In this document: positions 2,726 through 22,033 of the stretch, in pieces
How the letters are laid out: each line of letters opens with the position of its first letter
How positions within the stretch are numbered: position 1 is the first letter of the stretch
Virus record (IMG/VR): IMGVR_UViG_3300044633_000284
Span: 1 to 23,778 of that record
From: a virus
DNA length: 23,778 bases
Strand: one strand, 5' to 3'
The notes under the pieces: model-generated
Databases searched by the model: none
What the model was told of the DNA's origin: nothing
Seen by the model: only the letters and a program-made list of their open reading frames with translations
Made by a program: the position numbers and the translations under genes

Positions 2726-3043
2726 TTACCCCCTATACGTGATACCGCGCACTGCCCACATGCTGGCAGTCTCGGCGTTGGTGATCGCGACGGAGAACAT
2801 ACGCTGGACCTCTGCGTCGTGGTACGTGTCGCGCAGGATTTTGAGCATGATAACCGTGCCATCAAACGCCGCTTTAACTTGGTTCACACGACGCACCTCA
2901 TCCTCGGACAGAGGGTGGTAGGACGTGACCACTGGAGCGGGTGTGGGCTTAGGGGCCTCAATTACCGGCTCAGGGATCTCTTCGGTCTTCGTCGTGTCCA
3001 CGAAGCCTTCGGGCACTTCGTTCGTTTGCTTTTTAGTAGCCAT
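2726..3043 (-). CDS. Candidate Acb2/Tad1-hairpin protein, possible anti-CBASS/anti-Thoeris sponge (105 aa)
   Basis: Residues 1-40 are a Pro/Glu-rich, probably disordered arm. Residues 41-105 form a helical hairpin: SYHPLSEDEVRRVNQVKAAF, then a second helix with AITNAETASMWAVRGIT. The SYHPLS start, the small/acidic residues and the MWAV-x-x-IT end resemble the Acb2/Tad1 hairpin found in many phage small proteins. Characterised members bind cyclic (oligo)nucleotides or gcADPR signals of CBASS and Thoeris and so block defence. The resemblance is recalled from the family pattern, not computed, and sponge activity is inference; the long N-terminal arm is not typical. The ATG at 3043 follows AAAGGA with good spacing. 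It sits in the early/replication operon, a sensible place for an anti-defence gene. Confidence 0.8.
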   Translation of the reverse strand: MATKKQTNEVPEGFVDTTKTEEIPEPVIEAPKPTPAPVVTSYHPLSEDEVRRVNQVKAAFDGTVIMLKILRDTYHDAEVQRMFSVAITNAETASMWAVRGITYRG

Positions 3044-4769: not shown

Positions 4770-4798
4770 ATTATACACTACGCGAGCATTCCTAGCAA
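4770..4798 (-). promoter_or_regulatory. Sigma70-type promoter (TTGCTA-17-TATAAT)
   Basis: On the minus strand TTGCTA (4798-4793, 4 of 6 consensus bases), a 17-bp spacer and a perfect TATAAT (4775-4770) precede the 113-aa gene. The -35 lies within the end of the SNF2-like helicase gene. It would add transcription of the downstream small genes and the UvrD-like helicase. Confidence 0.7.
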
Positions 4799-6520
4799 GT
4801 TCCGATCGTTTCGGTCGTTGATGCTTGTCCGCACGAACTCGCTCACATCTTTCTTCTCTCGCAACGCCTGATTGACGGCCGCATCTACAGTGCCCTCGGC
4901 AATGATGTCGATGTAGGTCACACTCCGCGTCTGCCCGATCCGGTGTGCACGATCTTCGGACTGCTCGCGATCGGTGAAAGAGAACGAGTTCGAGTAGTAC
5001 ACCACCAACTCGGCGCGGGTCATGTTAAGACCCACACCACCGGTGGCCGCGTTACCCACAAGAAACCGCGCCTTGCCGGTTTGGAACAGGTTCTGCACGT
5101 TGTGGTCGCGGTCGTTCTCGTTAATGCCGCCATGAATCTCCACCACGGAGTCGTGACCGTACCTTTCGCGCAAAGCCTCGCACACCATCCGAATCTCCTC
5201 GATGAACCGGCACCACACGATCGTGCTGGCGTCGTTCTCCTCGGCTATAGCGAGTAGCTCCTCGACTTTCGGATTCTTTCCTGCAATGCGATTATGCGTG
5301 AACTTCGCCGCATCGTAAAGGTCTGGGTTACGCTCAAAGGTGATGATACCTCCGGCGATCTCTTGGAGCCGGAGCATTCGCTCGAGCACTGTCTTGACGG
5401 TGATTCCTTGATCTCCAGATACCGTTTTGTCACGCTTAGCAATGTCTTTATATAGCCGTTTTTGTTCATCTGTCAGTTCAACCTCTCGGGTCTGGTACAC
5501 TTTAGGTGGTAGCTCCGTCAGCACCTCGGATTTGCGGACTTGATAGATGAACGGCGAGATCAGCTCGATAAGCTCTTCCATATTCTGGTAGCCTACCACT
5601 TGCCGATCCTCGTACCCACCCATGATCGCATATCGATTGCGGAAAGAGTAGAAATCCCCGATCCCGATAATGTTCGGATCAAGGAACTCGAATTGCATGA
5701 AAATGTCCATCGGGCCATTCGCCACCGGCGTGCCCGTCATGATCACTTTGTAATTCGCGGATTTGCCCAGCTTCACACAGTTCTTACTGCGCACGGCCGA
5801 GTGGTTTTTAATCATGTGTGCTTCGTCCACAATCATCCCGACCCGGGTACTGCAGTCCACGAACTTCTGCGCAAGATGCACCGCGCCCCCAGCCGCAAGC
5901 GACTCGGTGCCGACGATTAGGAACTTCAGCCGCCCATCGGTTGTGGTATTCCACTCCTCGAATGCCTTGGGCTTGCTGGTGTTCAGGATCATCGTATCGC
6001 ACTCCATCGGGCAGTGGATGAGGACCTCGCGCTCCCAGTTCTTACGCGTACTGAACTTGGTGACAATCAGCACCCGGTCCACCTTGCTGTCCATGTAGTA
6101 AGCGGCAAAGAGATCGAGCGAAGTCTTGGTCTTTCCCGTACCCATATCCATGTAGAACGCGAACGTGCTCTTGTTCCACGCATGGTCGAGTCCCTTGAGC
6201 TGGTACGGCCGGGGTGTGGTCTTGAACGTGTAGACGGGTGGGAACGCCGCTACTTGATTCGTGCGTACGCGCTCGATAGTCGAAGTTGCAACCGTGCGAG
6301 CATCGTCTGTGAATGTGTCAGCATCAAAATTACCCAGCAGAAACTCGCTATTAGCCCGAAGAGCAGGAGCTGTCCACACGCGGCGACGAGAATCCCAACG
6401 CCGATTGGGAATGCGGCGAATCTTGTCCACCATCCACGGCGGGGAGTGAATGACGAATCGGCTGGTCTTTGCGTCATATGCGATCTGCACCTTAGAATTC
6501 TGATCGGAACTTGGGTTCAT
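4778..6520 (-). CDS. SNF2-like superfamily 2 helicase/translocase (580 aa)
   Basis: A DNA-dependent ATPase. Residues 10-52 look like a HARP-type module as in SMARCAL1-like proteins (IPNRRWDSRRRVW), often a fork-DNA-binding part. The motor follows: PRPYQLKGLDHAW (Q-like region, 103-115), Walker A MDMGTGKTK (124-132), DEAH box VDEAHMIKN (231-239), motif III MTGTPVANG (261-269), and motif VI DREQSEDRAHRIGQTR (517-532), whose two Arg and RIGQ are diagnostic of SNF2. All ATPase motifs are intact. The start at 6520 has GAGGT 8 bp upstream and overlaps the primase gene by 29 bp. Expected roles are fork remodelling or strand annealing in phage replication; its exact job is not known. Confidence 0.94.
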   Translation of the reverse strand: MNPSSDQNSKVQIAYDAKTSRFVIHSPPWMVDKIRRIPNRRWDSRRRVWTAPALRANSEFLLGNFDADTFTDDARTVATSTIERVRTNQVAAFPPVYTFKTTPRPYQLKGLDHAWNKSTFAFYMDMGTGKTKTSLDLFAAYYMDSKVDRVLIVTKFSTRKNWEREVLIHCPMECDTMILNTSKPKAFEEWNTTTDGRLKFLIVGTESLAAGGAVHLAQKFVDCSTRVGMIVDEAHMIKNHSAVRSKNCVKLGKSANYKVIMTGTPVANGPMDIFMQFEFLDPNIIGIGDFYSFRNRYAIMGGYEDRQVVGYQNMEELIELISPFIYQVRKSEVLTELPPKVYQTREVELTDEQKRLYKDIAKRDKTVSGDQGITVKTVLERMLRLQEIAGGIITFERNPDLYDAAKFTHNRIAGKNPKVEELLAIAEENDASTIVWCRFIEEIRMVCEALRERYGHDSVVEIHGGINENDRDHNVQNLFQTGKARFLVGNAATGGVGLNMTRAELVVYYSNSFSFTDREQSEDRAHRIGQTRSVTYIDIIAEGTVDAAVNQALREKKDVSEFVRTSINDRNDRNLLGMLA

Positions 6521-8054
6521 CGACTTTTACCTCATGATCTTCGGTTATGGGGGCATACCAAACGTTGATGGGCTTGCCGCCCGGGATTCGGAGCTTGTCG
6601 TGGTCCGCGCCACAGTCGCGCCGGAGCGACGTCCACAGATCCATCCCCGTCATCACCTCGGCCTTGTTGCGCTTCAGGAATTCGGAGAATGCAGTGCCCC
6701 GGAACACGATGCACCGCGTGCCGTTGATGACCTGCACCACCGGGATGTTGCGGGTGAGTGCCTTGCGGTCCTCGGTGTTAGTACCATCCGAAGTGAGATC
6801 GGCCTTTTGTACGAACTCGTTGAACTTGGCGGCGATAATACCCGAGGCACTGGCCTCTTTTGGCACTTCAATCACTCGCAGAGTCGGGATAAGCGGATCG
6901 AGGATACGACGCCGCCACGAGTCCTGCGTGATTTTAGGTATATTGATCTTGAGCTGTTCGAAGATCAGCGTGCCCATTGCGGCGGGGTCACGTAGGATAA
7001 TAGTCGGGATGTTCGCGATGAGCTTCCCATTGACGTGGATACCCCAGCGCGGGGGTTCGGATTGGTACTCGATCAGCTCGGTAAACTGGGGCAGTTGATC
7101 CTGTGCATCCAGCTCTTTGCTCTCGTCGGTTGAGATGCCGAACTCGCGGGTAACACACACCTTGCGGTCGCAGAGCGATTTGCACGGCTCCTCGCTACAT
7201 TTGTAAAGGTAGTCCCGGCGCGACGCGGAGCGAATCACCTTCTTGGCTTCAGCGGGTCCCAGCGGCTTGTCGAACATCGTGCGGTTCAGAGCCATCGCAT
7301 CGTCAAAGAATGTGTCGGGGCGGGCACGTTTGAGGTACACCACTACGTTGTACATCGAGTCATTGCGGGAGCCGGACTCCACACCCGTGTGAATCATTTT
7401 CTGAATGCACGGCGGGGCTTCCAAGTGCTCCCGGTGGGCCATCTCCTGAAGTGCCGCCACTGTCACCCGACGCGACTGGGCGTAGGAGATGAACAACTCG
7501 AACGACATCTTCTGGCCTTTGTCATCCACCGCGTACCGCACCGTCTTGTCTTTGTCGAAGAATGGCAGGTTGATCCAGTTCCCCAGCGACTTTTCGCCAC
7601 TGGACGTGGTCAGCGAGTCCTGCTTGGGGAAGATGTCCACATGGTTCGGAATCTGTAGCATGTCGCGCCACGAATTCAGGAGCCGAATCACGAGCTTGGC
7701 CGGAAGGTACTCCTCGCCGAACAGGTACAGGTGCGCCCCGCCCGACTTGCTCCGGGTCGCCACCAACGGGAGCCGGTAGTGTTCGATCTTCTCCACCAGC
7801 TTGGGGATGTCGATGTCGGACCCATCCGAGCCTTTCCCGTGGTTATCCACATCGATACAGCCGAACAGCACTGTACCCCCGTCCGTGATCGGAACTATCC
7901 CCAGCCCCATCTTGCCGCCCAAATGGTCGGCGTAGTGTTGCAGGGTCACCTCGCTCTTCTCGGTTATCATATTACCCGTCGCGGGGTCCCACTGTCCAAA
8001 GGACCGGAGATTCCCAGCGAACAGATTCGCGTAGTCCTGAACTAGACTAGTCAT
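6492..8054 (-). CDS. AEP-type DNA primase, TOTE-primase-like (520 aa)
   Basis: It makes primers for phage DNA synthesis. Archaeo-eukaryotic primase motifs: GCIDVDNHG (65-73, metal ligands D68 and D70), TRSKSGGAHLYLF (100-112, with the SxH-type H108) and VDIFPKQ (139-145, D140), followed by NWINLPFF (159-166). The phrase RSKSGGAHLYLF is characteristic of the TOTE conflict-system primase branch. After PPCIQKMIHTGVESGSRN (214-231) four Cys (286, 291, 295, 300) form a likely zinc or Fe-S site. The C-terminal 200 residues are a less clear helical domain, with no Walker motif, so the helicase role falls to the next gene. The ATG at 8054 has GAGAGGTG. It is first in the replication operon, directly behind the promoter and repeat region. 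Confidence 0.92.
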   Translation of the reverse strand: MTSLVQDYANLFAGNLRSFGQWDPATGNMITEKSEVTLQHYADHLGGKMGLGIVPITDGGTVLFGCIDVDNHGKGSDGSDIDIPKLVEKIEHYRLPLVATRSKSGGAHLYLFGEEYLPAKLVIRLLNSWRDMLQIPNHVDIFPKQDSLTTSSGEKSLGNWINLPFFDKDKTVRYAVDDKGQKMSFELFISYAQSRRVTVAALQEMAHREHLEAPPCIQKMIHTGVESGSRNDSMYNVVVYLKRARPDTFFDDAMALNRTMFDKPLGPAEAKKVIRSASRRDYLYKCSEEPCKSLCDRKVCVTREFGISTDESKELDAQDQLPQFTELIEYQSEPPRWGIHVNGKLIANIPTIILRDPAAMGTLIFEQLKINIPKITQDSWRRRILDPLIPTLRVIEVPKEASASGIIAAKFNEFVQKADLTSDGTNTEDRKALTRNIPVVQVINGTRCIVFRGTAFSEFLKRNKAEVMTGMDLWTSLRRDCGADHDKLRIPGGKPINVWYAPITEDHEVKVDEPKFRSEF

Positions 8055-8081
8055 CGTTTCACCTCTCTATACGTCTATGTA

Positions 8082-8110
8082 TTGACACCACCTCTGTGGG
8101 CTGGTATAAT
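8082..8110 (+). promoter_or_regulatory. Consensus rightward sigma70 promoter (TTGACA-17-TATAAT)
   Basis: TTGACA (8082-8087), a 17-bp spacer and TATAAT (8105-8110), with TGG before the -10, make a perfect extended consensus promoter on the plus strand, where no protein gene follows. Transcription would start near 8117 and run through the repeat array toward the 3' end of the structural operon, opposite to it. Its -10 overlaps that of the leftward promoter by two bases. An inverted repeat CCAC-CTCT-GTGG (8088-8099) sits in the spacer. Confidence 0.8.
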
Positions 8111-8137
8111 TATAACATCTCGCCATCGGAACAGCAA
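8109..8137 (-). promoter_or_regulatory. Leftward promoter of the primase operon (TTGCTG-17-TATAAT)
   Basis: Minus strand: TTGCTG (8137-8132, only 3 of 6 consensus bases), a 17-bp spacer, and TATAAT (8114-8109) with TGT before it (extended -10). The start would be near 8102, leaving about a 48-nt leader before the primase ATG. The first GGAAC motif (8128-8132) touches the -35, and the rightward promoter overlaps the core, so RNA polymerase can occupy only one at a time. Confidence 0.7.
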
Positions 8138-8361
8138 CCCCCACCGTTTGTTCCACCGTTCCATAGCAATGGAACACACGATGGAACACCCCCTCCCATT
8201 CGACAGACGGCATAGCTGTTCCACCGTTCCATGCGCACGCGGGGAATTCTCTGTCAACGCTGTGGTTCGATACGGGGGGTATATGATGGAACGGGGGATA
8301 CAACGGAACACGGCACATTCAAGCCCCGAAGGACGCGGGCTTCGAGGCACTAGGGCGTTCC
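8128..8361. repeat. Array of ten TGGAAC-type motifs (iteron-like)
   Basis: GGAAC or its complement GTTCC occurs at 8128, 8150, 8158, 8171, 8183, 8218, 8226, 8288, 8305 and 8357, in both orientations. Eight of ten are TGGAAC. The 16-mer TGTTCCACCGTTCCAT is repeated exactly at 8149-8164 and 8217-8232. The four sites from 8150 to 8187 are arranged symmetrically, with a 7-bp perfect inverted repeat in the middle. Spacing (8, 12, 17 bp and larger) is too irregular for CRISPR and suits binding sites of an initiator or repressor. Confidence 0.7.
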
Positions 8362-8386
8362 AGACGCCGTACCATCTTAATGGTAC
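8354..8386. repeat. Two adjacent perfect hairpins
   Basis: GGCGT-TCCAG-ACGCC (8354-8368) abuts GTACCAT-CTTA-ATGGTAC (8369-8386) with no base between them. Both stems are perfect, so they would stack coaxially in RNA of either strand or extrude as cruciforms. The first includes the last GTTCC motif. They may serve as an origin structure or slow convergent transcription. Confidence 0.55.
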
Positions 8387-8434
8387 AGGTAGTCGATTCT
8401 AGGGTCTTCTCGTGCGTGCGCATGTAAGCGGAAG

Positions 8435-8457
8435 CCTCTCCGAGCGCATTGGAGAGG
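8435..8457 (-). terminator. Hairpin after the structural operon (possible terminator)
   Basis: A 7-bp perfect stem CCTCTCC/GGAGAGG with a 9-nt loop lies about 20 bp after the stop of the last structural gene. In the minus-strand RNA it is followed by a pyrimidine-rich CUUCCGCUU rather than a U-run, so it is at best a weak or factor-dependent terminator. Confidence 0.4.
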
Positions 8458-8477
8458 TGGGGAGCTATATTAGTAGC

Positions 8478-10532
8478 TTACTGGCCCATGGAACCCAAGG
8501 GAGAGGGCGGGGGACCGGCTGGCGGGGTCGCCATACCGGACAGCTCAATCCTTGGTGCCCGCGTAGGGGTCATGGAGTCCTCAGGGTACTGATCTTTGGG
8601 GTCCCGAGCGGCCGCGAGACCACCAGTGAGGGTAGCACCAGCGTTTGCAACACGGCTCGAAGTTAACAAGGACTGCTCTTGCTGTTTGAGCGATTGCATA
8701 ATACTGTCGATCACCGTGTCAACCTTGGCGGTTGGGGTCAGGAGCTTCTCGGTGGTAGGCTGAGCCACCCGGGGCGACATCCCGATCAGGTTCGGGAACT
8801 GAGCACGAAGCGCATCTCCGGCGGCAGTGAATGGACGACCAGCCATCAGATTAGCGGCGGCACCCACTCCACCCGCGCCTTGGTCGAGGTCGGTGTCCAG
8901 TGGTGTGCGACGAAACCCGGACTTCTCGGTCTGAAGCATTGTGCGCTCTTGGAGCAACCGATTCTTAAATTCATCAAAGGCGGCGTCATCGCGAAAGGCA
9001 CGACGAAGCTTCTGTTCAGCATCACGGGACAAAATGGACTTCATAGGGTCTGCCGTCGGGCCAGCGACTCGGAGTTTCTCTAGCATCGCTTGGGAGATAC
9101 CGGCGCGGAAGGCGTCATACTCGGAGGGGGAGTCCTTAAATCGGTCGATGAGCTTGCGCATATCCAACTCGGGCATTGTGTAAATCTGCTGACCCTCTTT
9201 CATAGCTGTCAACAGCTCGGAATCACCGGCGAATGTTTGTCGTGCTACGCGGTATTCAGGCGAAGCTTTTTCCATATCGGCGAGGAGTCGTCGTTTCATA
9301 TTCAGGAGTGTACCGGCTTGACCGCCTTTGCCTTCACGCATTGCGCTCTCGATCATGTCGTCCAGCGCGATCTTGGTCTCGTGCAGAGCACGCAAGGTAT
9401 TTCTAGGATCGGCGATGTCCAGCTCGTTATCTGCCATGCGCTTGGCACCAATCTTCATCGCCTCCTTGAAGGTAGGCAGGTTGCGTAGCTTAGCGATGTC
9501 GGGCGCAGTCGTGGGGTTAAACGTTGGGGCACTGGCCCAAGCCGCTTTATATAGTGGGTCGGCTTCTTCAGCGCGCTTTTTAGTGAGGTCCAGCACGTCT
9601 GTGTAGAAGTCTTTGGAACCTGACATCAATGTGCGTAAATCTTCCGATACGCGTGGGATGCGTTCCATCTCGCGGGTTGCAAGTTCGGACTTCCCTTGAA
9701 TCCGTGCGGGGGACGGAGCGGCGGTTGCACGGCGCAAAAGCGCGGCAGTGTTCTCGCCAAGGTCAGCCAGCGTTATCTCGCCACGGGACATCGATTGCAT
9801 CTTGGCCAGTGCTTGGTCGGGTGTCATCCCGTCCTTTTCCAGAGCCTTAACGATCGCAAGGTCAGCCGCCTTATTCGCATCGCCGAAACCCAGCGATTGC
9901 TTAATCTTGCTAAACGCTGGCATCGCCACGTACTTGCCGAGCAGTCCCAACGTGCCAGTGGTCACAGCACCAACAGTCGCGCCTTTGACTGCTTCGCCGC
10001 CCAATTCGCCGGGAGGCTTTTCGCTCGTACCGACTGCGGTCACGGCACCAGACCCAGCACCATAGCCCATCATTCGAGGGATGCTGGGAGCTTTACCAAA
10101 GAGCATACCAGCGAGCTTCGGGCCAACAGCTTTGGAGACCGACGGGATCGCGCCAGCACCACCGGTGAACAGAGCCGGAACCAATGCACCACCAAGCTCT
10201 GAGGCAACCGCAGTGCGGGGATTCTCTTCTGCGTACTTGCGTAGGCCTTCGCGTTCAGCTTTTACCAAATCTTCGTAGCTTTGATTGCCACCCATCGAGC
10301 GCAACCGAGCGATAGCTTCATCCGAGAAGCCCATCGATAGACCCTGAAGTGCCTGACCTGCCGCACCCGGAAGCATCGCGTTGGGGCGTGGGGCTTGTGG
10401 GCGTACCGGCGCGGCGGGGGCTTGAGTATCGGGTGTACCCGCCTTGTTCAGCGTGAACCTGCGAATCGTAGCCTCAGGCGTACCAGCGGGGAATTCGTAG
10501 ATCTTGCCGTCAATCACTCGTTCGATGGTCAT
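8478..10532 (-). CDS. Putative internal virion / DNA-ejection protein (684 aa)
   Basis: It begins with a short structured motif (GKIYEFPAGTPEATIRRF, 9-26) seen at the N-termini of other phage virion proteins. A Pro/Ala linker follows, then an Ala/Gly-rich hydrophobic stretch (about 110-215, such as ELGGALVPALFTGGAG and GAVTTGTLGLLGKYVAM) that could insert in or cross a membrane. The rest is long amphipathic helix with many charged residues, and the end is Pro-rich. Large helical proteins with such stretches, placed last in a podovirus tail block, are commonly ejected with the DNA (compare T7 gp14-gp16 or P22 gp7/16/20 by position). The role is inferred from layout, not homology. The ATG at 10532 follows GGGAG and overlaps the previous stop (ATGA). 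Confidence 0.88.
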   Translation of the reverse strand: MTIERVIDGKIYEFPAGTPEATIRRFTLNKAGTPDTQAPAAPVRPQAPRPNAMLPGAAGQALQGLSMGFSDEAIARLRSMGGNQSYEDLVKAEREGLRKYAEENPRTAVASELGGALVPALFTGGAGAIPSVSKAVGPKLAGMLFGKAPSIPRMMGYGAGSGAVTAVGTSEKPPGELGGEAVKGATVGAVTTGTLGLLGKYVAMPAFSKIKQSLGFGDANKAADLAIVKALEKDGMTPDQALAKMQSMSRGEITLADLGENTAALLRRATAAPSPARIQGKSELATREMERIPRVSEDLRTLMSGSKDFYTDVLDLTKKRAEEADPLYKAAWASAPTFNPTTAPDIAKLRNLPTFKEAMKIGAKRMADNELDIADPRNTLRALHETKIALDDMIESAMREGKGGQAGTLLNMKRRLLADMEKASPEYRVARQTFAGDSELLTAMKEGQQIYTMPELDMRKLIDRFKDSPSEYDAFRAGISQAMLEKLRVAGPTADPMKSILSRDAEQKLRRAFRDDAAFDEFKNRLLQERTMLQTEKSGFRRTPLDTDLDQGAGGVGAAANLMAGRPFTAAGDALRAQFPNLIGMSPRVAQPTTEKLLTPTAKVDTVIDSIMQSLKQQEQSLLTSSRVANAGATLTGGLAAARDPKDQYPEDSMTPTRAPRIELSGMATPPAGPPPSPLGSMGQ

Positions 10533-22004: not shown

Positions 22005-22033
22005 ATTATACCACGCCTTTAGCATTTGGTCAA
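22005..22033 (-). promoter_or_regulatory. Structural-operon promoter (TTGACC-17-TATAAT)
   Basis: Minus strand: TTGACC (22033-22028, 5 of 6), a 17-bp spacer and TATAAT (22010-22005) preceded by TGG (extended -10). The -35 overlaps the endolysin stop codon. The start would be near 21998, about 29 bp before the adaptor ATG. It is one of the strongest sites in the window and would drive the 13.5-kb tail and virion block. Confidence 0.85.

Follow-up and report, generated by a model that had tools for sequence, protein, structure and literature searches.

The DNA analysed here comprises positions 1–23,778 of the IMG/VR virus record IMGVR_UViG_3300044633_000284, and this whole stretch of 23,778 nucleotides is referred to below as the window. 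The genes of the window run leftward almost throughout. The part of interest is the intergenic region between the late structural module and the primase operon:

4778–6520, minus strand: SNF2-type helicase, the next gene in the operon of promoter L
6492–8054, minus strand: primase of the AEP type (Pfam AEP-TOTE, PHROG 21866), the first gene under promoter L
8055–8477: intergenic region with an origin-like iteron array (array 1), flanked by the late module and the primase operon
8478–10532, minus strand: 684-aa gene that closes the leftward structural module (PHROG 5880, function not known)

A hairpin of the form GCTA-N6-TAGC (8463–8476) adjoins the stop codon of the last late gene and is kept in most relatives, including cultured ones; it is perhaps a terminator or a processing site. 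Elsewhere in the window, 2726–3043 on the minus strand encodes a protein with an Acb2/Tad1 hairpin domain, which may act in counter-defence against CBASS or Thoeris. A strong promoter-like site (TTGACC-17-TATAAT with TG; 22005–22033, minus strand) lies within the late module, just downstream of an endolysin-like gene, and has a counterpart in G001. A search for relatives of the primase in cellular genome contigs found none.

The intergenic region contains the following features:

8082–8110, plus strand: promoter R, with TTGACA at 8082–8087, a 17-nt spacer, TG at 8102–8103 and TATAAT at 8105–8110
8109–8137, minus strand: promoter L of the primase operon, with TTGCTG at 8137–8132, a 17-nt spacer, TG at 8117–8116 and TATAAT at 8114–8109
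8109–8110: bases common to both -10 boxes, invariant in 15 aligned relatives
8088–8099: inverted repeat CCAC-CTCT-GTGG in the spacer of R, which is also a stem-loop near the 5' end of the L transcript
8128–8154, plus strand: inverted repeat GGAACA-N15-TGTTCC near the start of the R transcript
8149–8188: first iteron block, two GTTCCA cores forward (8150, 8158) and two reverse (8170, 8182), the cores nearly invariant
8217–8232, plus strand: second iteron pair TGTTCCACCGTTCCAT, an exact copy of 8149–8164
8287–8292, minus strand: single iteron core, beside a TA-rich stretch in many relatives
8357–8362, plus strand: single iteron core

The two promoters were first described in a sequence-only reading of the window, and direct reading places them exactly as it did: both strands carry TATAAT with a TG extension and a -35 box at 17 bp, and the -10 boxes overlap by two bases. 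R matches the consensus at 12 of 12 positions and has the TG in addition, as claimed. The same reading called the -35 of L poor, and it is only there that L is weak (3 of 6 consensus positions), its -10 being consensus with TG. Transcription starts are usually placed from the -10 by the -7/+1 rule, and this was used to predict a start for R at the A at 8117 (plus strand) and for L at the A at 8102 (minus strand). Using a promoter matrix of approximate E. coli frequencies, entered by hand, R scores 19.1 and L 13.9, these being sequence scores only; the same values hold for G001, and the L of G008, which has no TG, scores 10.9.

The exact pattern of R with its TG (14 specified bases) occurs twice in the window, at 8082–8110 on the plus strand and at 1058–1086 on the minus strand, compared with a back-of-envelope expectation of about 1e-4 per window. 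With up to three mismatches there are four matches, against 1.0 expected. The site at 1058–1086, on the gene strand, is the only other perfect TG-extended promoter in the window. It and up to about 10 further gene-strand sites in full-length relatives are early promoters that share TTGACA, a spacer ending in CACCYGTG, and TATAAT, and they make up a promoter family found across the phage, which may have an operator built in. An operator common to R and these promoters was considered and rejected, as R does not have the CACCYGTG spacer motif; in L016 the other early promoters keep CACC-type spacers while the dyad in R has changed.

Relatives were gathered by scans with the primase and helicase, giving dozens of sequences with primase identities from 100% down to about 30%. 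Promoters were surveyed in 23 representatives with primase identity of at least 68%. A rightward promoter scoring above 99% of the null is present at the R locus in 21 of the 23, every one of them TG-extended, and R outscores L in all 21, in agreement with the earlier suggestion that R is the stronger side. Changes per site were counted on the primase tree for the 15 relatives that could be aligned. The 12 positions that belong to R only have undergone 7 changes, the region mean being 2.4 per site (p ~1.4e-4 against random draws), so that they are about four times less variable than the remaining intergenic region and as constrained as the iterons. When the R pattern is slid along the region, eight offsets reach the same constraint, seven of them on the iterons and one overlapping R. 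Within R, variation falls on the unconstrained base that separates TG from the -10 and on the third position of the -10, where substitutions are tolerated, which is the pattern expected of a promoter. L is probably not a dead promoter either, to judge from its consensus -10 with TG, nearly invariant in the 15 aligned relatives, and from the TTG of its -35, which is invariant in them.

R is the sole perfect promoter directed against the gene strand in G001, G002, G004 and G008, and the sole TG-extended near-consensus one in G007, G013 and G009; at a lower score cut-off, one further counter-strand site (13.5) is found in G008. R is absent from L049, and in L051 the only rightward site is another one, located past the array. 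R is also absent at this place from five cultured phages with 40–44% primase identity, namely Salmonella phage PMBT28, Acinetobacter phages SH-Ab 15497 and Barton, PSA28 and Kokobel2. Gene order is unchanged in all five, their intergenic region is rich in repeats, and the primase is preceded by a TG-extended promoter-like site. The distribution of R points most readily to its gain in the uncultivated clade, followed by loss in some members.

The -10 is common to R and L in 16 representatives. In L015 an insert parts the two -10 boxes, and both promoters are kept, face to face. In L018, L053, L078 and L055, which belong to two clades, R and L share the -35 and not the -10. The comparison with relatives therefore bears out the conservation of both promoters but not that of the shared -10 core, which the sequence-only reading had joined to it. 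Given the usual size of an RNA polymerase footprint, R and L would lie within one footprint in every geometry seen. Joint occupancy is thus unlikely, and the proposal that only one polymerase can bind at a time holds well. What has been kept is the presence of R, its strength, and its steric overlap with L, rather than a shared -10. The best explanation of 8082–8137 is that it contains two real, selected and mutually exclusive promoters of the sigma-70 type; the pair is ordinary in kind, and unusual in strength and context.

R points to the 3' end of the 684-aa late gene (8478–10532), and no conserved reading frame was seen on it among the relatives, consistent with the claim that this side is non-coding. 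In the relatives that share the -10, the window's clade included, no terminator-like site was found within 420 nt after R. In the clades that share the -35, a terminator-like hairpin that has a T-rich tail lies at +10 to +25 of R (9891–9905 in L018, 4310–4324 in L055), with the same CAA loop and with stems that differ and are nevertheless paired. The predicted R RNA in the L018 and L055 clades is about 35 nt long and would stop before the iterons. Transcription through the array is therefore not a universal role of R, and the position of the hairpin favours an effect of initiation or occupancy over one of a long transcript.

The CCAC/GTGG dyad in the spacer of R lies at about +4 to +15 of the primase mRNA, where it forms a small stem-loop. 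Its arms covary (CCGC/GCGG in L020, CCGG/CCGG in L016 and L022), and it may protect or regulate the primase mRNA. L049, which is without R, still has a stem-loop near the equivalent position. The whole primase leader folds no better than shuffled sequence in most relatives.

It is worth adding that the origin-like array into which R points is the more informative context of the two promoters, and was missed by the earlier reading. Its GTTCCA repeats are paired 8 to 9 bases apart, and R starts some 30–32 bases from the first pair. Most full-length relatives have two clusters of such pairs per genome, as do PMBT28, PSA28 and Kokobel2. The ends of G008 share a 127-base repeat, for which reason it is taken as circularly complete; there the two arrays bracket the late module. 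In the uncultivated clade array 2 has the opposite orientation to array 1, and at the same end of it a TG-extended promoter-like site points into the array in 12 of 12 genomes. The core differs between lineages, being GTTACA in L016 and L022, GTATCC in L055 and GCAACC in SH-Ab 15497. These changes, and the mismatched arms of the first block in L055, make protein-binding iterons look likelier than RNA stems. The arms of the inverted repeat at 8128–8154 have changed and remain paired in L017 (GGTACA/TGTACC) and L073 (GGAGCA/TGCTCC). A TA-rich stretch is visible by the repeats in many relatives and is weak in the window. GC skew was considered as evidence for an origin and is uninformative in genomes with one-way genes. 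A fixed spacing between the iterons and L, as for an activator site, was rejected since the spacing varies in L073 and in the cultured relatives. The arrays are possibly replication origins.

On the basis of these observations, we tentatively favour, at somewhat below an even chance, the hypothesis that R is a competing promoter that brakes the primase operon, possibly with a link to origin control. L would drive the primase/helicase operon, while R would fire in the opposite direction to produce a short or non-coding RNA beside the iteron array. A polymerase sitting on or leaving R would hold down L until something puts R out of action, such as a protein binding to the iterons just downstream or a change of polymerase. 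The firing of R and L, their competition in vivo, and its resolution by an iteron-binding protein are all inferred; the iterons are possible sites for a regulator that acts differently on the two promoters. Against this hypothesis, two promoters crowded into a short space might overlap for that reason alone, L, with its TG-extended consensus -10, may still fire efficiently in the presence of R, and no candidate was found for a regulator that would throw a switch. Competition is plausible and agrees with what the relatives have conserved. The earlier description of the locus as a built-in switch for starting replication exceeds the evidence. Nor can R be generally required to start replication, as it is missing from L049, lies elsewhere in L051, and is absent from the five cultured phages, which have a primase promoter of their own. 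A brake on L would thus be dispensable.

A rather less probable explanation is that R serves the origin, its transcription or RNA acting on the adjacent iterons either to activate replication, by opening or priming the DNA, or to restrain it. This would fit the start of R about 32 bases from the first iteron pair, its direction into the array, the presence of two arrays per genome, cultured relatives included, and the inward promoter-like site at array 2. That site, however, also points to a terminase-like gene, which it may serve, and among the window's nearest relatives it scores only modestly, at 9 to 10.5. There is a parallel in phage lambda, where the oop RNA is situated next to the origin and, together with iterons, silences theta replication (PMC3349717). 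The leader of R folds better than shuffled sequences over +1 to +80 (mean z -3.4); however, the opposite strand also does so (mean z -2.0), and the inverted iterons largely account for the folding. From +81 to +160 and from +161 to +240 folding is no better than in shuffles, and an Rfam search gave no match. A conserved RNA structure over the whole rightward transcript was rejected, because the inverted iterons dominate the alignment fold. Two further observations count against an origin role: the R RNA of about 35 nt would end before the iterons in the L018 and L055 clades, and the cultured relatives keep the array without R.

The braking and origin roles may also be combined, though we regard this as unlikely: the polymerase would choose between making the replication proteins from L and transcribing or opening the origin side from R, an iteron-bound initiator would decide, and exclusion would be kept while its geometry was rebuilt.

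It is improbable that R acts in an antisense or insulating manner, with its RNA or a head-on polymerase limiting read-through from the late operon into the primase operon. R does face the 3' end of the last late gene, and the relatives that share the -10 have no terminator-like site for 420 nt after it; but two clades have a terminator-like hairpin directly after R, and conserved hairpins already stand at the end of the late operon.

More doubtful still, and to be given little weight, is that R arises from the near-symmetry of the -10 as a side effect, as in the bidirectional promoters that are widespread in bacteria. Overlapping divergent -10 boxes are indeed common there (PMC10268837), and TATAATTATA is near-symmetric. 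However, R carries a nearly invariant -35 of its own and a TG that does not vary, it persists in relatives that have given up the shared -10 (L015, L018, L055), and the predicted starts are 15 apart and not the usual 18. The other strong promoters of G001 and G008, moreover, have opposite partners scoring about 4 to 12, whereas R, the partner of L, scores 19.1. That R expresses a small protein is scarcely credible and was rejected: an open frame of 106 codons overlaps the region, but one-base indels between relatives break it within the array, and no shared frame was seen.

The observations suggest a conserved brake or timing device on the replication genes, beside a probable replication origin, and parts of this arrangement resemble known systems. 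As in SPP1 oriL/oriR (PMC6316719), there are two separate direct-repeat arrays in a genome with genes running one way, although the origin function is here putative; unlike SPP1, the repeats are paired 8 to 9 bases apart. As with lambda oop and pO, R opposes the replication operon near iterons (the origin again being putative), and its RNA is predicted to be about 35 nt in two clades. It differs from oop in that no antisense target like cII was found, and in the window's clade, with no terminator-like site within 420 nt, R would not make a short self-terminating RNA. The replication proteins also differ from those of lambda, being an AEP primase and an SNF2 helicase.

In the conjugation system of pLS20, the overlapping divergent promoters Pc and Pr, of unequal strength, form a switch in which the polymerase itself can regulate, and the weak promoter makes the regulator RcoLS20 (PMC4207663). 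R and L likewise overlap and differ in strength (19.1 and 13.9, here by sequence score). Unlike pLS20, the strong side is non-coding.

The bidirectional promoters of Salmonella and E. coli are divergent sigma-70 pairs that overlap at a near-symmetric -10, one of the RNAs being non-coding; starts 18 bp apart, such that -7 and -11 coincide, are the commonest arrangement, and others occur (PMC10268837). The -10 elements of R and L similarly diverge and overlap (8105–8110 plus, 8109–8114 minus), but their starts (8102 and 8117) are 15 apart with an overlap of two bases, and each has its own TG and constrained -35, both sides being conserved. In bacteria, non-coding promoters of divergent pairs are commonly taken to result from the symmetry of the -10. 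In the present case the non-coding member has retained a -35 and a TG of its own, has a higher score than the promoter of the genes, and survives changes of geometry in an uncultivated clade. If the reading of R as a competing brake is true, the locus would allow promoter competition to be tested as a control device in a clean natural setting, next to what is probably a two-origin replicon with cultured relatives.
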